The translations under genes and the position numbers were made by a program. Below the pieces are notes generated by a model. It did no database searches and had not been told where the DNA came from. It saw only the letters and a program-made list of their open reading frames with translations. 36,249 nucleotides of DNA from Bacteroidota bacterium. GTDB lineage: Bacteria; Bacteroidota; Bacteroidia; Bacteroidales; UBA4417. Numbering within the stretch: position 1 is the first letter of the stretch; every line of letters begins with the position of its first letter. The stretch is taken from positions 60,414 to 96,662 of the forward strand of contig JACAAZ010000020.1 of NCBI GenBank assembly GCA_013376995.1. The letters run 5' to 3'. Positions 2,843 through 9,091 of this stretch are shown in pieces.

Positions 2843-5083
2843 ATGAAAACAAGACGAGACTTTATTAAAATCAGTGCCCTGGGCATTGGAGGAACTGTTG
2901 CCCTGGGAGGTGCAAGTTGGGTTCTAGGTGGCCCAATGGCAAACCTTCTGGGACTGCCGGATGAAACAGCAGAATTGAAGAGATTTCCTACTTATTGTGA
3001 AGTTTGTTTCTGGAAATGTGCAGGTTGGGCTTATGTTAAGCCAGATGGCGGTATCCAGAAGATTATTGGTAATGCTGATGATCCTCAATGCAATGGAAGA
3101 TTATGTCCAAGAGGGACAGGAGGAGTTGGAATGTATTCTGATCCTGACCGCTTAAAAAAACCTTTAATCAGGGTTATCAAGGATGGAACGCAATCCTATC
3201 GCGAAGCCAGTTGGGATGAAGCATTGGATTATGTTTCTAAAAAGATGCAGGAAATTGCAACAAAGCATGGGCCTGAAAGTATTGCATTGTTTAACCATGG
3301 TTCTTCAGGCCATTACTTTACCCACCTGTTAAATGCTTTTGGAACCAATAATATTGCTGCTCCTTCCTTTGCTCAATGTCGCGGGCCCCGTGATACAGGC
3401 TTTGAAGCGACCTTTGGAGAGTCTGTAGGAAGCCCGGAAGCAACTGATATCCGTGATACCCGTTGTCTAGTCCTCATCGGTTCTCATATTGGTGAGAATA
3501 TGCATAACGGACAGGTACAGGAGATGTCAGATGCAATCGATAAAGGTGCTGTTATCATCACTGTTGACCCAAGGCTATCGACTGCTGCATCAAAATCAAA
3601 ATATTGGCTTCCTATTAAGCCATCCACAGATATAGCTTTACTACTTTCATGGATTCATGTGCTTCTGTATGACGAATTGTATAATAAGGAGTATGTTGAA
3701 AAATATGCTGAAGGCCTCAACGAACTGAAGGAACACGTTAAAGATTATACCCCTGAATGGGCTTATGGCATTACAACCATCAAACCTGAACTGATTCGGT
3801 TGACTGCCAGGGAGATGGCAAATGCAGCTCCATCTGCAATGATTCATCCCGGTCGGCACACTACATGGTATGGTGATGATGTGCAGCGTTCTAGAGCGAT
3901 TGCTATCCTGAATGCATTGCTGGGATCCTGGGGAAACAGGGGCGGTATCTTCTTCAAGGAAGGTATCAAACTTCCCGATTTCCCGCATCCTGAATTCCCA
4001 AAACCAGCCTGGTCATGGCAGGATACTCTAAACGGAAGGTATCCGCTGGCCAAGGAAGCCGTAACCAATACGATTATCGAAGCTTCAATTCCTGAAACAG
4101 GTAAAGAACATCTGATCAAAGGATGGATTATTTCCGGTACCAACCTGGTAGTTTCAGTTCCTTTGAAGGAACAGCTCATGAAAGCCATTCACTCCCTTGA
4201 TTTACTGGTTGTTGTTGATACTATGCCAATGGAAATCACTGGTTATGCTGATGTTGTACTCCCGGAATGTACCTATCTTGAAAGATATGATGATATAAGG
4301 GCATCTGCTCATCGTGAACCAACCCTTGCTCTCAGGATGCCTGCTGTTGCCCCGATGCATGAAACAAAGCCGGCTTGGTGGATTGCTAAACAAATAGGGG
4401 AGCGATTAGGATTAGCAGCCTATTTTAATTACAAAGATTACGAGGAAGTCCTTGAATGGCAGTTAAATCAAATTGGACAATCGCTGGATGAACTCAAAAA
4501 AGTGGGGATCAAACGTCTTCCACGAACCAAGGGCCCGTTATATATTGAGCCAGGATCTGATTATACTTTTAAAACTGCCAGTGGAAAGATTCAATTGTAT
4601 TCGAAAGAGTTCGCTGATGCTGGGTTTGATGCTATGCCAACGTACCAGCCTCATGCTGAACCGCAAGAAGGCTTTTACAGGCTGATATACGGTCGTGCTC
4701 CCATGCATACCTTCAGCCGAACAGCCAACAATCCTAACCTGGTAGCCCTGATGCCTGAAAACGCTATCTGGGTGAACCCGGAAGTGGCAAACATTTGGGG
4801 CATAAAAAAGAACCAATATGTCTGGCTTAAGAACCAGGACGGTGTTGTATCCAATTTCCCGGTCAAAGTCAGGCTTACCGAACGCATTCGCTGGGATTCC
4901 GTGTATATAGTCCATGGGTTCGGCCATCATCACAAACCGCTGCACCTCGCCTATGGCAGGGGGGCTAACGATACTGAACTCGTCACGAATGTGGTGATTG
5001 ATCCTATCATGGGAGGTACCGGAATGCGTGGAAACTTTGTGACATTTCTTAAGGATGATCCGAAAAAGGAGGTAGAATCATGA
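2843..5083 (+). CDS. Molybdopterin oxidoreductase, polysulfide/thiosulfate reductase-like catalytic subunit
   Basis: With the start at 2843 the protein has 746 aa and opens with a Tat signal (MKTRRDFIKISALGIGG), so it is exported folded to the periplasm. A 4Fe-4S motif follows (C52, C55, C59 in CEVCFWKC; C88 in CPRG). C179, in FAQCRGPRDTG, stands where PsrA-type enzymes carry the molybdenum-ligating cysteine. The C-terminal part (GRAPMHTFSRTANNP to HGFGHHHKPL) fits the molybdopterin-dinucleotide binding domain. Length and operon order (catalytic, 4Fe-4S, NrfD) match the PsrABC/PhsABC complexes of the DMSO reductase family, which reduce polysulfide or thiosulfate or run in reverse. YeeE/YedE and rhodanese genes downstream support a sulfur substrate. 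Arsenic or tetrathionate chemistry cannot be excluded. Its stop overlaps the next start (ATGA). Confidence 0.88.
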   Translation: MKTRRDFIKISALGIGGTVALGGASWVLGGPMANLLGLPDETAELKRFPTYCEVCFWKCAGWAYVKPDGGIQKIIGNADDPQCNGRLCPRGTGGVGMYSDPDRLKKPLIRVIKDGTQSYREASWDEALDYVSKKMQEIATKHGPESIALFNHGSSGHYFTHLLNAFGTNNIAAPSFAQCRGPRDTGFEATFGESVGSPEATDIRDTRCLVLIGSHIGENMHNGQVQEMSDAIDKGAVIITVDPRLSTAASKSKYWLPIKPSTDIALLLSWIHVLLYDELYNKEYVEKYAEGLNELKEHVKDYTPEWAYGITTIKPELIRLTAREMANAAPSAMIHPGRHTTWYGDDVQRSRAIAILNALLGSWGNRGGIFFKEGIKLPDFPHPEFPKPAWSWQDTLNGRYPLAKEAVTNTIIEASIPETGKEHLIKGWIISGTNLVVSVPLKEQLMKAIHSLDLLVVVDTMPMEITGYADVVLPECTYLERYDDIRASAHREPTLALRMPAVAPMHETKPAWWIAKQIGERLGLAAYFNYKDYEEVLEWQLNQIGQSLDELKKVGIKRLPRTKGPLYIEPGSDYTFKTASGKIQLYSKEFADAGFDAMPTYQPHAEPQEGFYRLIYGRAPMHTFSRTANNPNLVALMPENAIWVNPEVANIWGIKKNQYVWLKNQDGVVSNFPVKVRLTERIRWDSVYIVHGFGHHHKPLHLAYGRGANDTELVTNVVIDPIMGGTGMRGNFVTFLKDDPKKEVES
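5066..5072 (+). promoter_or_regulatory. Strong Shine-Dalgarno AAGGAGG
   Basis: AAGGAGG lies 7 nt before the ATG at 5080, inside the end of the molybdoenzyme gene. Such strong sites are uncommon in Bacteroidota. Here it fixes the start of the 4Fe-4S subunit and, with the ATGA overlap, suggests tightly coupled translation. Confidence 0.7.
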
Positions 5084-5613
5084 GATACGCCATGGCTATT
5101 GATACCCGCAAATGTGTGGGTTGCAGCGACTGCGTAGTTGCCTGCCAGACAGAAAACAATGTCCCTATCGGCTTTTGCCGTGATTGGGTCAGTGAAACTG
5201 TAGATGGTACCTATCCAAATGTCAGTATTGAATTACGTTCAGAAAGGTGTAATCATTGCGATAATTCTCCTTGCGTAAGGTGTTGTCCAACTGGTGCCAG
5301 CCATATTGAAGATGGAGGGATTGTACTTGTTACCCAGCATCGCTGTATTGGGTGTGGTGCTTGCATCCAGGCATGTCCCTACGAGGCAAGGTACTCCCAT
5401 CCGGATGGCTATGTGGACAAATGTACCTTTTGCATTCACAGGGTTCGGAAAGGTGAAAATCCTGCCTGCGTAAGTGTATGCCCGACCAAGTGTATGTATT
5501 TCGGTGACTTGGATGACCCTAATTCCGATATTGTAAACGTCCTGAAAAACAGGAAGTTTAAATCACTTGCACCGGAAGCCGGGACTCAACCACAGATTTT
5601 TTACCTGGTTTAA
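5080..5613 (+). CDS. 4Fe-4S electron-transfer subunit (PsrB/PhsB-like)
   Basis: This 177-aa protein carries four cysteine clusters in the order typical of DMSO-reductase-family iron-sulfur subunits: CVGCSDCVVAC near the N-terminus, CNHCDNSPCVRCC, CIGCGACIQAC, and CTFC followed by CVSVC. It would therefore bind four 4Fe-4S clusters and carry electrons between the NrfD membrane subunit and the molybdenum subunit. It has no signal of its own; in this family the subunit is co-exported with the Tat-bearing partner. It overlaps the catalytic gene by 4 bp and is followed after 29 bp by the NrfD gene. The assignment is confident. Confidence 0.93.
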   Translation: MRYAMAIDTRKCVGCSDCVVACQTENNVPIGFCRDWVSETVDGTYPNVSIELRSERCNHCDNSPCVRCCPTGASHIEDGGIVLVTQHRCIGCGACIQACPYEARYSHPDGYVDKCTFCIHRVRKGENPACVSVCPTKCMYFGDLDDPNSDIVNVLKNRKFKSLAPEAGTQPQIFYLV

Positions 5614-5642: not shown

Positions 5643-6584
5643 ATGAAAGAAGAATTATTTGTTAGCGGTCGCAATATTCCCAATATTGATCCCTACCTGA
5701 ATATATGGCATTGGCAAATCCCTATGTACCTGTTCCTTGGTGGGTTATCTGCCGGGATACTTTTCTTTGCAGGTGTATATTACATACTTGGGAAAGAGAA
5801 ACAGATGCCTGCAACAGTTAAATGGGCTCCTATGCTTGTGCCAATTGCTTTGGTGTTAGGATTGTTCATGTTATTTCTTGACCTGAAACACAAGCTGTAT
5901 TTCTGGCAGCTATATACGAATATCCGGCTTGAATCACCTATGGGATGGGGAGCCTGGGTGCTGATGATCATTACCCCGATTTCTATCCTATGGTCAGCCA
6001 GTTATATGAAAGAAATGTTTCCCAACTGGGATTGGAAATTTGAATTTCTAAATACATTTGAGAAGTGGGTGATCCGTAACAGGATTTACATTGCCTGGCC
6101 GATGGCCATTTATGCCGTCATTCTTGGTATATACACTGGGATATTACTCTCGGCATTTAATGCAAGGCCTCTGTGGAATACATCTCTCCTTGGACCCTTG
6201 TTCCTGGTATCAGGAATGTCGACAGGGGCAGCAACCATAATCCTGATGAGCAAAAGCCATGAAGAAAGGAGGATTATCGGGAAATTGGATCTGCTGTTGA
6301 TCGTAGTTGAACTTTTCTTTATTACCCATATGATCATGGGATTCCTGGCAGGTTCAGAAGTGCAGATCAATGCAGCACACCTGTTTCTCGGTGGGCAGTT
6401 TACTGTTTCCTTCTTCGTGTTCGTGATAGTCCTTGGTTTAGTATTCCCTGCGCTGCTGGAAGTACTTGAAATGATAGGCTACAAGGTTCCGATTGTTATC
6501 CCTGCGGTTCTGATCCTGATGGGAGGACTCATTTTCAGGTTCATTATGGTAGAAGCTGGTCAGTTGACAAGGTATCTCTATTAA
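5643..6584 (+). CDS. NrfD/PsrC-type membrane subunit
   Basis: This 313-aa polytopic protein has about eight to nine hydrophobic helices. It begins with NIWHWQIPMYLFLGGLSAG, the conserved first helix of NrfD/PsrC quinone-binding subunits. It would anchor the molybdoenzyme and its 4Fe-4S partner to the cytoplasmic membrane and exchange electrons with menaquinone. Its place as third gene after catalytic and 4Fe-4S subunits is the standard Psr/Phs order. It is a little longer than compact PsrC proteins. Whether the complex reduces sulfur compounds with quinol or oxidises sulfide to quinone cannot be read from the sequence. Confidence 0.92.
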   Translation: MKEELFVSGRNIPNIDPYLNIWHWQIPMYLFLGGLSAGILFFAGVYYILGKEKQMPATVKWAPMLVPIALVLGLFMLFLDLKHKLYFWQLYTNIRLESPMGWGAWVLMIITPISILWSASYMKEMFPNWDWKFEFLNTFEKWVIRNRIYIAWPMAIYAVILGIYTGILLSAFNARPLWNTSLLGPLFLVSGMSTGAATIILMSKSHEERRIIGKLDLLLIVVELFFITHMIMGFLAGSEVQINAAHLFLGGQFTVSFFVFVIVLGLVFPALLEVLEMIGYKVPIVIPAVLILMGGLIFRFIMVEAGQLTRYLY

Positions 6585-6641: not shown

Positions 6642-7169
6642 ATGAATAGTAAAAAAAATACAGGGACATTCTACCTAAACCCATACCTGGGTGGGGTATT
6701 CCTAGGCCTGGTCCTGATGATGACCTTCTACTTTACAGGCAGGGGCCTTGGGGCAAGCGGTGCAGCTAAAAGCACTGTTGTTGCTGCTGTTAATGCAGTT
6801 TCCCATGAGCACGCAGAAAAATCACATTATTATGGGAAGTTTGTGACTGATGATCAGCATCCAATGAATACCTGGCTGGTATTTGAAGTAGTGGGTGTGC
6901 TGGCAGGCGCATTTCTTTCAGGATTGTTTTTCAACCGATTGAAATTGAAGGTTGAACATTCTCCAAAGATTACATCGAGGCGAAGATTGATTTTTGCAGT
7001 TTCCGGGGGCATTTTGTTTGGAATCGGATCACAGTTGGCCAAAGGTTGTACAAGTGGTGCCGCTCTTAGTGGGATGGCAGTTTTATCCCTGGCTGGATTC
7101 ATTACTATGATGGCAATCTTTGGAACTGCTTTCATTTTTGCATGGGTATTTAAAAAAAACTGGATTTAA
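6642..7169 (+). CDS. YeeE/YedE family half-transporter, N-terminal type
   Basis: With ATG 6642 the protein has 175 aa; the frame is open back to a TTG at 6615, which adds nothing like a family N-terminus. It shows four to five hydrophobic segments and the family signature GIGSQLAKGCTSGAALSG, with the conserved cysteine in GCTSG. Full-length YeeE (TsuA of Spirochaeta) is a thiosulfate channel of about 350 aa that passes substrate along conserved cysteines. Here this gene and the next make two half-size proteins, as known for other split DUF395 pairs. A polar segment with several histidines (SHEHAEKSHYYG) follows the first helix. The gene lies 57 bp after NrfD in the same transcript. Confidence 0.88.
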   Translation: MNSKKNTGTFYLNPYLGGVFLGLVLMMTFYFTGRGLGASGAAKSTVVAAVNAVSHEHAEKSHYYGKFVTDDQHPMNTWLVFEVVGVLAGAFLSGLFFNRLKLKVEHSPKITSRRRLIFAVSGGILFGIGSQLAKGCTSGAALSGMAVLSLAGFITMMAIFGTAFIFAWVFKKNWI

Positions 7170-7190: not shown

Positions 7191-7784
7191 ATGGTTGGGC
7201 CTTTAATTCCGATGGGTGTGATCCCGCAAGCATGGGATAATGTTTTTGCCGTCCTTTTGGGCATGGGATTCGGTTTTACCCTCGAAGCATCCGGGTTTTC
7301 TTCTTCAAGGAAGATTATCGGGACATTCTTCGGGTATGACTTTGTAGTACTGAAAGTATTCTTTACAGCAGCGATCACGGCCATGCTAGGATTGCTCTAT
7401 ATGTCATACACAGGCTTGGTTGAATTTTCGATGCTTTATATTCAGCCTACATATGTTACATCTGCAATTGTTGGCGGAATTGTGATGGGTATTGGCTTTT
7501 CGATGGGAGGGTACTGTCCCGGCACAAGTTTCTGTGCGGTTGCAATTGGCAAGCTTGATGCGCTGGTATTCACAATTGGCATGCTTGTCGGTATTTTAAT
7601 CTTTTCAGAATCCTTTCCTGTTTTTGAAAAGATGTACAACAGCTCCTTTCTTGGACCTAAACTCGTTACGGATTCACTGGGTATATCGAAAGGACTATTT
7701 GCATTCCTGCTGGTATTTGCAGCAGTTGGAATGTTCTGGGGAGCTACATGGGTGGAGCATAAGGTAAAGAAAGTTGAATATTAA
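7191..7784 (+). CDS. YeeE/YedE family half-transporter, C-terminal type
   Basis: This 197-aa protein has about five hydrophobic segments. It includes GFGFTLEASGFSSSRKI near the start and the cysteine signature GFSMGGYCPGTSFC (about residues 103-116), which corresponds to the second substrate-binding half of YeeE/YedE proteins. With the preceding 175-aa half it gives a combined length of about 372 aa, close to a single full-length family member. The pair probably assembles as a heteromer. Transport of thiosulfate or another sulfane-sulfur compound is inferred from TsuA and from the neighbouring rhodanese-fold and molybdoenzyme genes. The gap to the previous gene is 21 bp and to the next 12 bp. 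Confidence 0.88.
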   Translation: MVGPLIPMGVIPQAWDNVFAVLLGMGFGFTLEASGFSSSRKIIGTFFGYDFVVLKVFFTAAITAMLGLLYMSYTGLVEFSMLYIQPTYVTSAIVGGIVMGIGFSMGGYCPGTSFCAVAIGKLDALVFTIGMLVGILIFSESFPVFEKMYNSSFLGPKLVTDSLGISKGLFAFLLVFAAVGMFWGATWVEHKVKKVEY

Positions 7785-7796
7785 CAGTTGAAGATA

Positions 7797-8432
7797 ATGG
7801 ACCGCAGATACACTATTTTGGCCATATTGCTGATCATTGCAGCATCGGGATTGCTATTTCTGCCAGACAGGAGCAAGCCGAAAGAGATCAATCCGCAGGA
7901 ATTGCTTGCAGCCATTGATGACCCCGCCAGGTTTATCAGTACGGACCAGGTAACAGAGCGTATAATTGGTGCCGACCCCGCACTCCAATTGATTGATGTC
8001 CGGTCTCCTGAGGAATTCCGGAAATTTGCTATGCAGGGTGCCATCAATATCCCGATTGATTCATTGCTTATCCCACAGTTTAAGGATGTTCTAACTCAAG
8101 CAGGCAAAGACAAGGTTTTTTATTCCAGCTCCGATCTCGCAGCAGATGAAGCTTGGCAGATCTGCCGGAGAACTTCAGTTCCCAGGATCTATGTTATGAA
8201 AGGCGGATTGAATGAGTGGTTCAATACCATTATGAAATGCTCAGAACCAAATGCTACAGCTCCGAGTCAGGACATCGATCTTTACCACTTTCGTCTTGCT
8301 GCCAGGCAATACTTCACTGGTGGAAGCCAGCTGAATTCAGGCCAGCGTGAAGGGAATTCGGGAGCATCGGACAAGAAAGCTGAGGAAGTTAAAGTTGTAA
8401 AAAAAGAAACCAAAACCGGTGGTGGTTGCTAA
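7797..8432 (+). CDS. Membrane-anchored rhodanese-fold protein without loop cysteine, GGGC tail
   Basis: With ATG 7797 the protein has 211 aa. A basic start (MDRRY) and one helix (about residues 6-22) suggest N-in topology with the domain in the periplasm (inference). The rhodanese fold is recognised from LIDVRSPEEFRKFAMQGAINIP and from VMKGGLNEWF. The catalytic loop after the strand KVFY reads SSSD, so Ser110 stands where rhodaneses have their persulfide-forming Cys. After the domain comes a low-complexity, lysine-rich linker, and the protein ends in KTGGGC, with Cys211 as the last residue. Two other cysteines remain (C123, C148). It lies 12 bp from both neighbours. Sulfur transfer by the classical mechanism is unlikely; a carrier or binding role through the tail is proposed. 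Confidence 0.82.
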   Translation: MDRRYTILAILLIIAASGLLFLPDRSKPKEINPQELLAAIDDPARFISTDQVTERIIGADPALQLIDVRSPEEFRKFAMQGAINIPIDSLLIPQFKDVLTQAGKDKVFYSSSDLAADEAWQICRRTSVPRIYVMKGGLNEWFNTIMKCSEPNATAPSQDIDLYHFRLAARQYFTGGSQLNSGQREGNSGASDKKAEEVKVVKKETKTGGGC

Positions 8433-8443
8433 TTCCTGAAAAT

Positions 8444-9091
8444 ATGGACATAAAGAAATTTGTAAAAACGAACTGGCTCTTCTTGTCAGCATTGGTTTTC
8501 CTGGTAGTAATTATTACCGTTCTACTGAGTTTAAGAGGGCCTTCAATTGCCTATAAAATTGAAGCCGCTAAAGTATCATCTTCAATAACAGATACTTCAT
8601 CAATGGTTTCGCCAATGTCGATTTTCAATCAGAAGGAAAACCAGACAGCAGGTTTTATACTAGTGGATGTAAGGAGCAGAGATGAGTTTTTCAAGGGGCA
8701 CATTCAGAAGGCTGTAAGTATTCCTGTTAGAGAACTCCTGGATAATAATTCGGTTCTTTTCTTCAGGAAAGCAGCAAAGGAACACTCCCAAATTATCCTT
8801 TATGGAAATGACCAGTTGCAGGCAAATAGTCCCTGGATGTTGCTCAAACAATTAGGCTTTGATAATATCAAGGTTCTTGAAGGTGGATATTCCTTTTTTA
8901 AGAATTTACCAATTGCCGATTCCTTGATGCAAACTGGAATAGCAGCCCTCAATGTAGAGAAATCGATAGTGGATACGACTTTATTTTCAAAATCATCCCA
9001 ACAACCCGGGAATGGAACTTCTTCCGGTAAAAAGGCCGCTGAAAAGGTGATTCCTGTTAAGAAAAGCGGTTCGGCCGGCGGAGGCTGCTAA
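8444..9091 (+). CDS. Second membrane-anchored rhodanese-fold protein, GGGC tail with the only cysteine
   Basis: With ATG 8444 the protein has 215 aa. A lysine-rich start (MDIKKFVKTN) and a helix (about residues 11-30) suggest a periplasmic domain. The rhodanese fold shows LVDVRSRDEFFKGHIQKAVSIP and VLEGGYSFFKNLP. At the catalytic loop, after QIILY, stands Gly121 in place of Cys. A Ser/Lys-rich linker leads to SAGGGC. Cys215, the last residue, is the only cysteine of the whole protein. It shares design and tail with the gene just upstream but differs strongly in sequence, so the pair is old or convergent. It is the last gene of the + operon; the GH25 gene on the other strand ends 27 bp further on. 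Confidence 0.82.
   Translation: MDIKKFVKTNWLFLSALVFLVVIITVLLSLRGPSIAYKIEAAKVSSSITDTSSMVSPMSIFNQKENQTAGFILVDVRSRDEFFKGHIQKAVSIPVRELLDNNSVLFFRKAAKEHSQIILYGNDQLQANSPWMLLKQLGFDNIKVLEGGYSFFKNLPIADSLMQTGIAALNVEKSIVDTTLFSKSSQQPGNGTSSGKKAAEKVIPVKKSGSAGGGC

Follow-up and report, generated by a model that had tools for sequence, protein, structure and literature searches.

The cysteine of the active-site loop is the mark of an active rhodanese sulfurtransferase, and it is absent from two neighbouring rhodanese-fold proteins, here named RhdA and RhdB. What can such proteins do, and for which partner? We examined the question on a stretch of 36,249 nucleotides (the window) from a Bacteroidota genome of 5.05 Mb. 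In the reading that we favour, at a probability of roughly 60%, they are membrane-anchored, probably periplasmic sulfur carriers, in which an arm ending in a cysteine and borne by a disarmed rhodanese would feed a split YeeE/YedE channel.

RhdA and RhdB close a gene string with a split YeeE/YedE channel

Both genes belong to a single plus-strand string, in the order PhsA-like molybdoenzyme, ferredoxin-type subunit, NrfD, first and second YeeE half, RhdA and RhdB.

2843..5083, + strand: PhsA-like molybdopterin oxidoreductase (PhsA model, E 1.8e-141, under the curated cut-off of that model)
5080..5613, + strand: 4Fe-4S ferredoxin-type subunit (profile matches)
5643..6584, + strand: NrfD/PsrC-type membrane subunit (profile matches)
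6642..7169, + strand: YeeE/YedE half 1 (Pfam Sulf_transp, E 1.4e-21), conserved Cys in GCTSG
7191..7784, + strand: YeeE/YedE half 2 (Pfam Sulf_transp, E 1.5e-11), conserved Cys in CPGTS
7797..8432, + strand: RhdA, 211 aa from ATG; membrane helix at the N-terminus, rhodanese domain lacking the loop Cys, additional conserved helix (157-174) and a disordered tail with GGGC at its end (model and sequence)
8124..8126, + strand: Ser110 codon, catalytic-Cys position of RhdA (sequence, 6mxv profile alignment)
8418..8429, + strand: GGGC terminus of RhdA (sequence)
8444..9091, + strand: RhdB, 215 aa from ATG; N-terminal membrane helix, rhodanese domain, GGGC-ending tail
8804..8806, + strand: Gly121 codon, catalytic-Cys position of RhdB (sequence, 6mxv profile alignment)
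9077..9088, + strand: GGGC terminus of RhdB (sequence)

The PhsA-like protein starts with TRRDFIK, which we take to be a twin-arginine-like motif and which agrees with a periplasmic system. Both small proteins match Pfam Rhodanese (PF00581; RhdA E 1.6e-12 and 48.2 bits, RhdB E 1e-15 and 58.4 bits, curated cut-off 22.2). At E<=1 the same scan gave nothing else for RhdA and two further, sub-cut-off matches for RhdB. In NCBIfam, the pair and 30 YeeE-rhodanese fusions matched just general rhodanese-containing or YedE-type models, with scores far under the cut-offs for the window proteins and for the one fusion whose scores were given.

Sequence-profile (not structural) alignments place the loop cysteine of PDB 6mxv on Ser110 of RhdA and Gly121 of RhdB, in agreement with a sequence-only reading of this DNA. 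That reading was equally right in ending both proteins with Gly-Gly-Gly-Cys and in making Cys215 the sole cysteine of RhdB; RhdA has two cysteines besides its terminal one. The N-terminal membrane helix that it had assigned to both is borne out by a structure model of RhdA (mean pLDDT 89, pTM 0.73), with helix 3-20, rhodanese domain 33-146 and the extra helix 157-174, and by an N-terminal hydrophobic segment in 79 of 82 RhdA and 65 of 65 RhdB from the order. A strand (105-109) runs directly into Ser110, and the residues after 174 are unstructured, with block pLDDT of 45-63 from 181 on. Foldseek matches of this model, from a fold library made of the PDB only, include many named rhodaneses and sulfurtransferases. 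Three other rhodaneses of the window's own genome have the loop cysteine and no GC end.

A thiol-looking gene string lies ahead of the Phs operon (346-1847), composed of a thioredoxin-like protein without Pfam match (346-699), a thioredoxin with a hydrophobic N-terminus (721-1143), a small DUF6132 protein with the C-terminus CRSC (1182-1421) and a DUF302 protein (1449-1847). Further upstream, short direct repeats like 'taacgccgaacccttc' occupy about positions 1-290. A small Rieske-type protein is encoded on the minus strand (1922-2350), divergently from the Phs operon; in the order-level loci 14 frames, that of the window among them, matched its profile.

The loop cysteine is lost and the tail cysteine kept in RhdA

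We searched 247 genomes of the same order and obtained an RhdB match in 98 and an RhdA match in 105 at E<=1e-6. Besides the window's own, 104 genomes have an RhdA match; we left out six with weak matches and compared loci on 100 stretches taken from the remaining 98. Complete single-domain frames at most 4 kb from YeeE, the window included, made up sets of 82 RhdA and 65 RhdB; one cut and one far RhdA, and one cut and three far RhdB, were set aside.

For RhdA the pattern is clear. The loop residue is Ser in 76, Gly in 4, Thr in 1 and Ala in 1 of the 82, and Cys in none; the sequence alignment thus puts no other cysteine at the loop position. The tail does not vary freely: its cysteine is present in 81 of 82, within G(G/S)C followed by at most two residues in 80, and the last three columns read G 80, G 81 and C 81. 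In 51 members it is the sole cysteine. A hand-picked alignment of 32 rows, which includes neither of the two members without standard tail, has D67, R69, G137, G209, G210 and C211 as its only invariant columns. The order-level loci contain 5,386 complete stop-to-stop frames of 70 aa or more, counted mechanically with rhodaneses included, and a single non-rhodanese frame among them ends in GGC(x); the phylum loci described below likewise gave 1 of 2,333. Since this end is almost confined to rhodaneses and the end columns of RhdA are conserved, the tail is not due to chance.

RhdB is less strict. Its loop residue is Gly in 25, Ser in 13, Ala in 10, Cys in 8, His in 5 and Tyr in 4 of 65; the tail cysteine column is occupied in 62, a G(G/S)C tail occurs in 58, and the tail cysteine is the sole one in 25. 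Near YeeE, 29 of 40 complete long tandem rhodaneses and 17 of 19 YeeE2-rhodanese fusions of the order are also tailed, and Cys-loop pattern and tail occur together in 36 of 60 long tandem relatives. The sequence-only reading had noted, for the two proteins, loss of the loop cysteine with a cysteine at the end of the tail. This is a constant feature of RhdA (0/82 against 81/82); because a loop Cys is found in 8/65 RhdB and a Cys-loop pattern together with a tail in 36/60 tandem proteins, the loss is strict in RhdA only. At the level of sequence, loss of the loop cysteine with retention of the tail cysteine is a family trait, conserved in RhdA.

Some members end in other ways. Proteins in the RhdB position of L131, L138 and L145 carry another cysteine-containing tail (..EECPDLN or ..ENCPDLN), and the tandem proteins of L098 and L117 end in ..EVCD. 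On L265, L276 and L317, RhdB-type proteins stop just ahead of the linker, tail-less beside a normally tailed RhdA. A frameshift was considered for these three and discarded, as the other frames just downstream show no tail.

The pocket of RhdA is not decaying, which suits another reading: the tail cysteine would fold back into the emptied rhodanese pocket, its own or its partner's, and restore a normal sulfurtransferase. S110 and N111 are each conserved in 76 of 82 (the window has Ser at 111) and W120 in 78 of 82, so that the loop still has a role, perhaps binding the arm or sulfur. The arm is also long enough, at 33-44 residues after the A169 column. However, the tail is disordered in the RhdA model, the loops of RhdB vary as listed above, and the tie to YeeE is left unexplained. 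We consider such a fold-back improbable.

Tailed rhodaneses accompany YeeE/YedE halves

We then pooled the distinct complete rhodanese frames of 221 loci. An end of GGC, GSC, EGC or DGC with at most one further residue was counted as a tail, and frames at most 2.5 kb from YeeE, or fused to it, as near. The tail unit is a mostly basic stretch, then GGC or EGC, then 0-1 residue: K+R amount to at least 3 of 15 residues in 343 of 381 tails, and the cysteine is the very last residue in 328. GGGC, the unit picked out from the window alone, is therefore not what is conserved.

Two glycines stand ahead of the cysteine in 359 of the 381 tails. Ubiquitin-like sulfur carriers have an exposed GG end that is turned into a thiocarboxylate, and a protease that removed the cysteine from the tail would expose the same end here. 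This scheme is hardly credible: 21 of the 381 tails have EGC or DGC at the end and so lack GG, which breaks it as a rule for the family though the window pair does have GG; the fold is that of a rhodanese; and the terminal cysteine is at least as conserved as the glycines. The cysteine itself, as the carrier reading has it, would be the working residue.

Of the near frames, the fused ones included, 369 of 394 are tailed, and of the far frames 12 of 35. The 25 tail-less near frames comprise 12 long, 9 RhdB-type, 2 YeeE-fused, 1 RhdA and 1 short other protein. Of the 12 tailed far frames, several occur further upstream within the same cluster, and L202, a contig on which YeeE was not seen, accounts for two. 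On L111, L112, L261, L264, L290, L293 and L311, GGC also ends long rhodanese-like proteins that are encoded ahead of the Phs operon, at 4-6 kb from YeeE.

Counted by locus, YeeE was missing from view at one of the 211 distinct tailed loci and seen at the other 210; PhsA or NrfD was seen at 160 of the 211. By a rough test the latter two are absent from 27 loci with room for them, 21 with YeeE-rhodanese fusions and 6 with split genes like the window's. The sequence-only reading had the sulfur shuttled between the molybdoenzyme and the YeeE/YedE halves. Linkage supports its second partner; the first is not a necessary one. Over the whole family the tail thus follows the channel rather than the molybdoenzyme. 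Split loci with room have PhsA or NrfD in 118 of 124 cases, so for the split form of the window the molybdoenzyme could still be the partner, and the two are hardly separable there by linkage. The channel halves have a single conserved cysteine each, in 200 of 200 and 159 of 160. A model of a YeeE2-rhodanese fusion (mean pLDDT 71, pTM 0.45) was of too low quality to locate the tail relative to the channel.

The tail could also be a delivery arm for selenium instead of sulfur, on a selenium transporter of the YedE type. Weak seleno_YedE matches were obtained for the window YeeE2 (E 0.0014) and for 15 of 30 fusions (best 1.3e-7), and selD exceeds its cut-off more often in genomes where RhdA is matched (70 of 105) than in those where it is not (42 of 142; odds ratio 4.8, p 9e-9, kinship ignored). 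On the other hand, 35 of the 105 RhdA carriers have no selD over cut-off, 19 of these genomes being at least 95% complete; the window YeeE2 scores 17.9 bits where the seleno_YedE cut-off is 200; and the PhsABC linkage points to sulfur. Selenium is thus a very unlikely cargo, and we retain sulfur as that of the proposed carriers.

Tails are matched within a genome

Tails of RhdA and RhdB were compared in pairs with both members tailed. Over the ten residues before the motif, 115 pairs have 72.6% identity when both tails come from one locus and 32.4% when they come from different genomes; the highest value in 10,000 shuffles was 37.5%. The match fades with distance from the motif, from 0.746 (residues 1-5) and 0.706 (6-10) to 0.400 (11-15), 0.238 (16-20), 0.113 (21-30) and finally 0.069, the background (31-40). 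In 73 of the 115 pairs no other tail matches better than that of the own partner. Tandem rhodanese tails match as well (0.55 against 0.248, n=26, shuffle maximum 0.388). No significant matching was detected between fusion and RhdB tails (0.267 against 0.167, shuffle maximum 0.300, n=12) or between fusion and tandem tails (0.28 against 0.169, shuffle maximum 0.31, n=10).

Several trivial causes were tried and rejected. Low complexity or base composition does not account for the matching, as identity is at background 31-40 residues upstream. Relatedness does not either: between genomes, RhdA tails are 0.677 identical where the cores are 70-80% identical and 0.812 where they are 80-95% identical, and the RhdA and RhdB tails of one genome reach 0.726 despite domains with a median local identity of about 25% (113 pairs). 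Recent gene conversion was dismissed on codon usage, 407 of 833 identical residues sharing their codon where 430 are expected from the usage of the genes; an old DNA exchange with saturated silent sites is possible. Tails that match within a genome on dissimilar domains suggest that one shared partner per genome reads them. We propose that a docking site common to all of them, most likely on the channel, is what preserves their likeness.

The same observations feed the main rival of the carrier reading: the tail would be a docking peptide and its cysteine a disulfide tether joining RhdA, RhdB and the channel, or two tails, with no sulfur carried. Matching of the 10-15 residues before the motif fits a docking peptide, as does the generally basic character of the tails, and a lone terminal cysteine, found in many members, suits one intermolecular bond. 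Such a tether leaves unexplained the glycine ahead of the cysteine and the use of a sulfur-transfer fold, and RhdA stands without an adjoining RhdB at several loci, e.g. L099, L103, L105, L106 and L107 (RhdB elsewhere in the genome being possible). We rate it as unlikely, though as the best placed of the alternatives.

Proposed mechanism

In the carrier reading, the rhodanese domain would have become a scaffold without a reactive cysteine of its own, strictly so in RhdA. The reactive thiol would be carried at the tip of a tail about 35 residues long, mostly basic and closed by GGC, or by EGC in another lineage. This tail might swing, pick up sulfane sulfur outside the cytoplasm as a persulfide and hand it to the adjoining split YeeE/YedE channel, whose two conserved cysteines would pass it inward. 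At loci that have them, the sulfur could be made or loaded by PhsABC or by a long tandem rhodanese that keeps its Cys loop. We infer the periplasmic side, the persulfide chemistry, the direction of flow and the identity of the docking partner. For the side, the charge bias round the membrane helix predicts an N-in orientation, with the domain outside, in 63 of the 79 RhdA with a membrane segment; the bias is weak in RhdB (37 of 65 N-in, 21 opposite).

A bolder version, which we hold tentatively and doubt slightly more than we believe, would make these proteins a new class of extracytoplasmic carriers: disarmed rhodaneses, several per operon, with the reactive cysteine on a swinging tail, the genome-matched tail serving as a delivery code for one YeeE-type channel, so that sulfane sulfur would never be set free. 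If the carrier reading is right, an enzyme fold would have been made into a carrier by relocating its nucleophile. Genome-matched tails also provide a natural system for the study of docking specificity.

Relation to known sulfur carriers and importers

Sud is a periplasmic rhodanese proposed to give sulfane sulfur to polysulfide reductase, an enzyme of the Psr/Phs type. It works through its loop cysteine and is not known to have a membrane helix or a cysteine tail. RhdA and RhdB share its fold, and PDB 1qxn, Sud of Wolinella, was a weak sequence match; they differ from Sud in all three of these respects. DsrC and TusE are cytoplasmic and carry a reactive cysteine on a flexible C-terminal arm, DsrC having two arm cysteines. 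They had been taken as the model for the window pair from the sequence alone, but their fold is unrelated: the fold here is that of a rhodanese, and there is no DsrC Pfam match.

SoxY, whose structure was reportedly described by Sauve et al., is a closer analogue. The cysteine of its C-terminal GGCGG binds the sulfur substrate, according to PMC6067878. It is described there as a sulfur-handling periplasmic protein with a Gly-flanked cysteine on a C-terminal arm, which RhdA and RhdB, predicted to be periplasmic, would resemble. Unlike SoxY, RhdA and RhdB have a rhodanese domain, a membrane anchor and no SoxY Pfam match, and the cysteine closes the chain in most tails (328/381, as above). Their arm has glycine on one side of the cysteine only, the full GGCGG being absent, and is unstructured in the RhdA model. 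By analogy, SoxY would be the nearest precedent in working principle, nearer than DsrC/TusE.

As for the channel, one conserved cysteine per half is reportedly essential for zero-valent-sulfur import by the split YedE1E2 of Cupriavidus, and rhodanese genes are mentioned among the genomic neighbours of yedE1E2 (PMC10812762). YedE1E2 of Cupriavidus and Sinorhizobium, SoxT and TsuA resemble the window in their channel part, two half-size YeeE/YedE with one conserved cysteine each. The two Sulf_transp halves of the window likewise have one conserved cysteine apiece, as in a YedE1E2-type importer and perhaps at corresponding residues, and import of zero-valent sulfur is their predicted function. 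In the YedE1E2-type literature the partners discussed are PDO, DsbA/SoxS, and TusA or YeeD; neither a cysteine tail on such a rhodanese nor a YeeE-rhodanese fusion is mentioned in the available parts of PMC11582611, PMC10812762 and PMC11073785. Nor was a description of a cysteine-tailed rhodanese found in the open-access literature, including the accessible portions of PMC11237559, PMC13047784, PMC11129491 and PMC12998232, so that priority is not certain. The SoxT paper (PMC11582611) calls sulfur import into the cytoplasm poorly understood. A fixed tail cysteine on the gene neighbour of the channel, sometimes fused to it, offers a concrete molecule and a one-residue test for such import.

Tailed rhodaneses beyond the order

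A profile search at E<=1e-10 matched 91 of 395 genomes sampled across the phylum, certainly with other rhodaneses among the matches. We examined the best 40 of 60 places chosen by E-value. All 40 loci have a rhodanese or YeeE-fused rhodanese ending in GGC, EGC or DGC with at most one further residue, the EGC or DGC form occurring in 19, and YeeE was seen on 39, the exception being L202, with its genes at a contig end.

Named genomes were scanned with an 8-row alignment, and the best 80 of 421 relatives were kept. All 80 loci have a tailed RhdA-type, RhdB-type or YeeE-fused protein; 8 of them duplicate loci obtained before, and one Neomarinimicrobiota bin, maybe mis-binned, contributes two contigs. 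Since the query profiles include the tail, the ranking of matches may favour tailed members, here as in the sample of the phylum. RhdA of these best 80 ends in GGC, in one case with an extra residue. Many of the named records are metagenome bins; carriers among the named strains not so marked are Draconibacterium mangrovi GM2-18, Maribellus luteus XSD2, M. maritimus 5E3 and Maribellus sp. CM-23.

In the bolder version given above, the cysteine-tailed rhodanese would perhaps go back to an ancestor of much of Bacteroidota and be common to Gemmatimonadota as well. Outside the phylum, a plasmid collection gave one match, in Gemmatirosa kalamazoonensis (Gemmatimonadota), where a rhodanese frame stands with YeeE1 and YeeE2 in the same gene order. 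The loop residue of this frame is Ser, and the sole cysteine of the rhodanese part is the last residue, in an end (RRRGC) that is a variant outside the tail pattern used for our counts.
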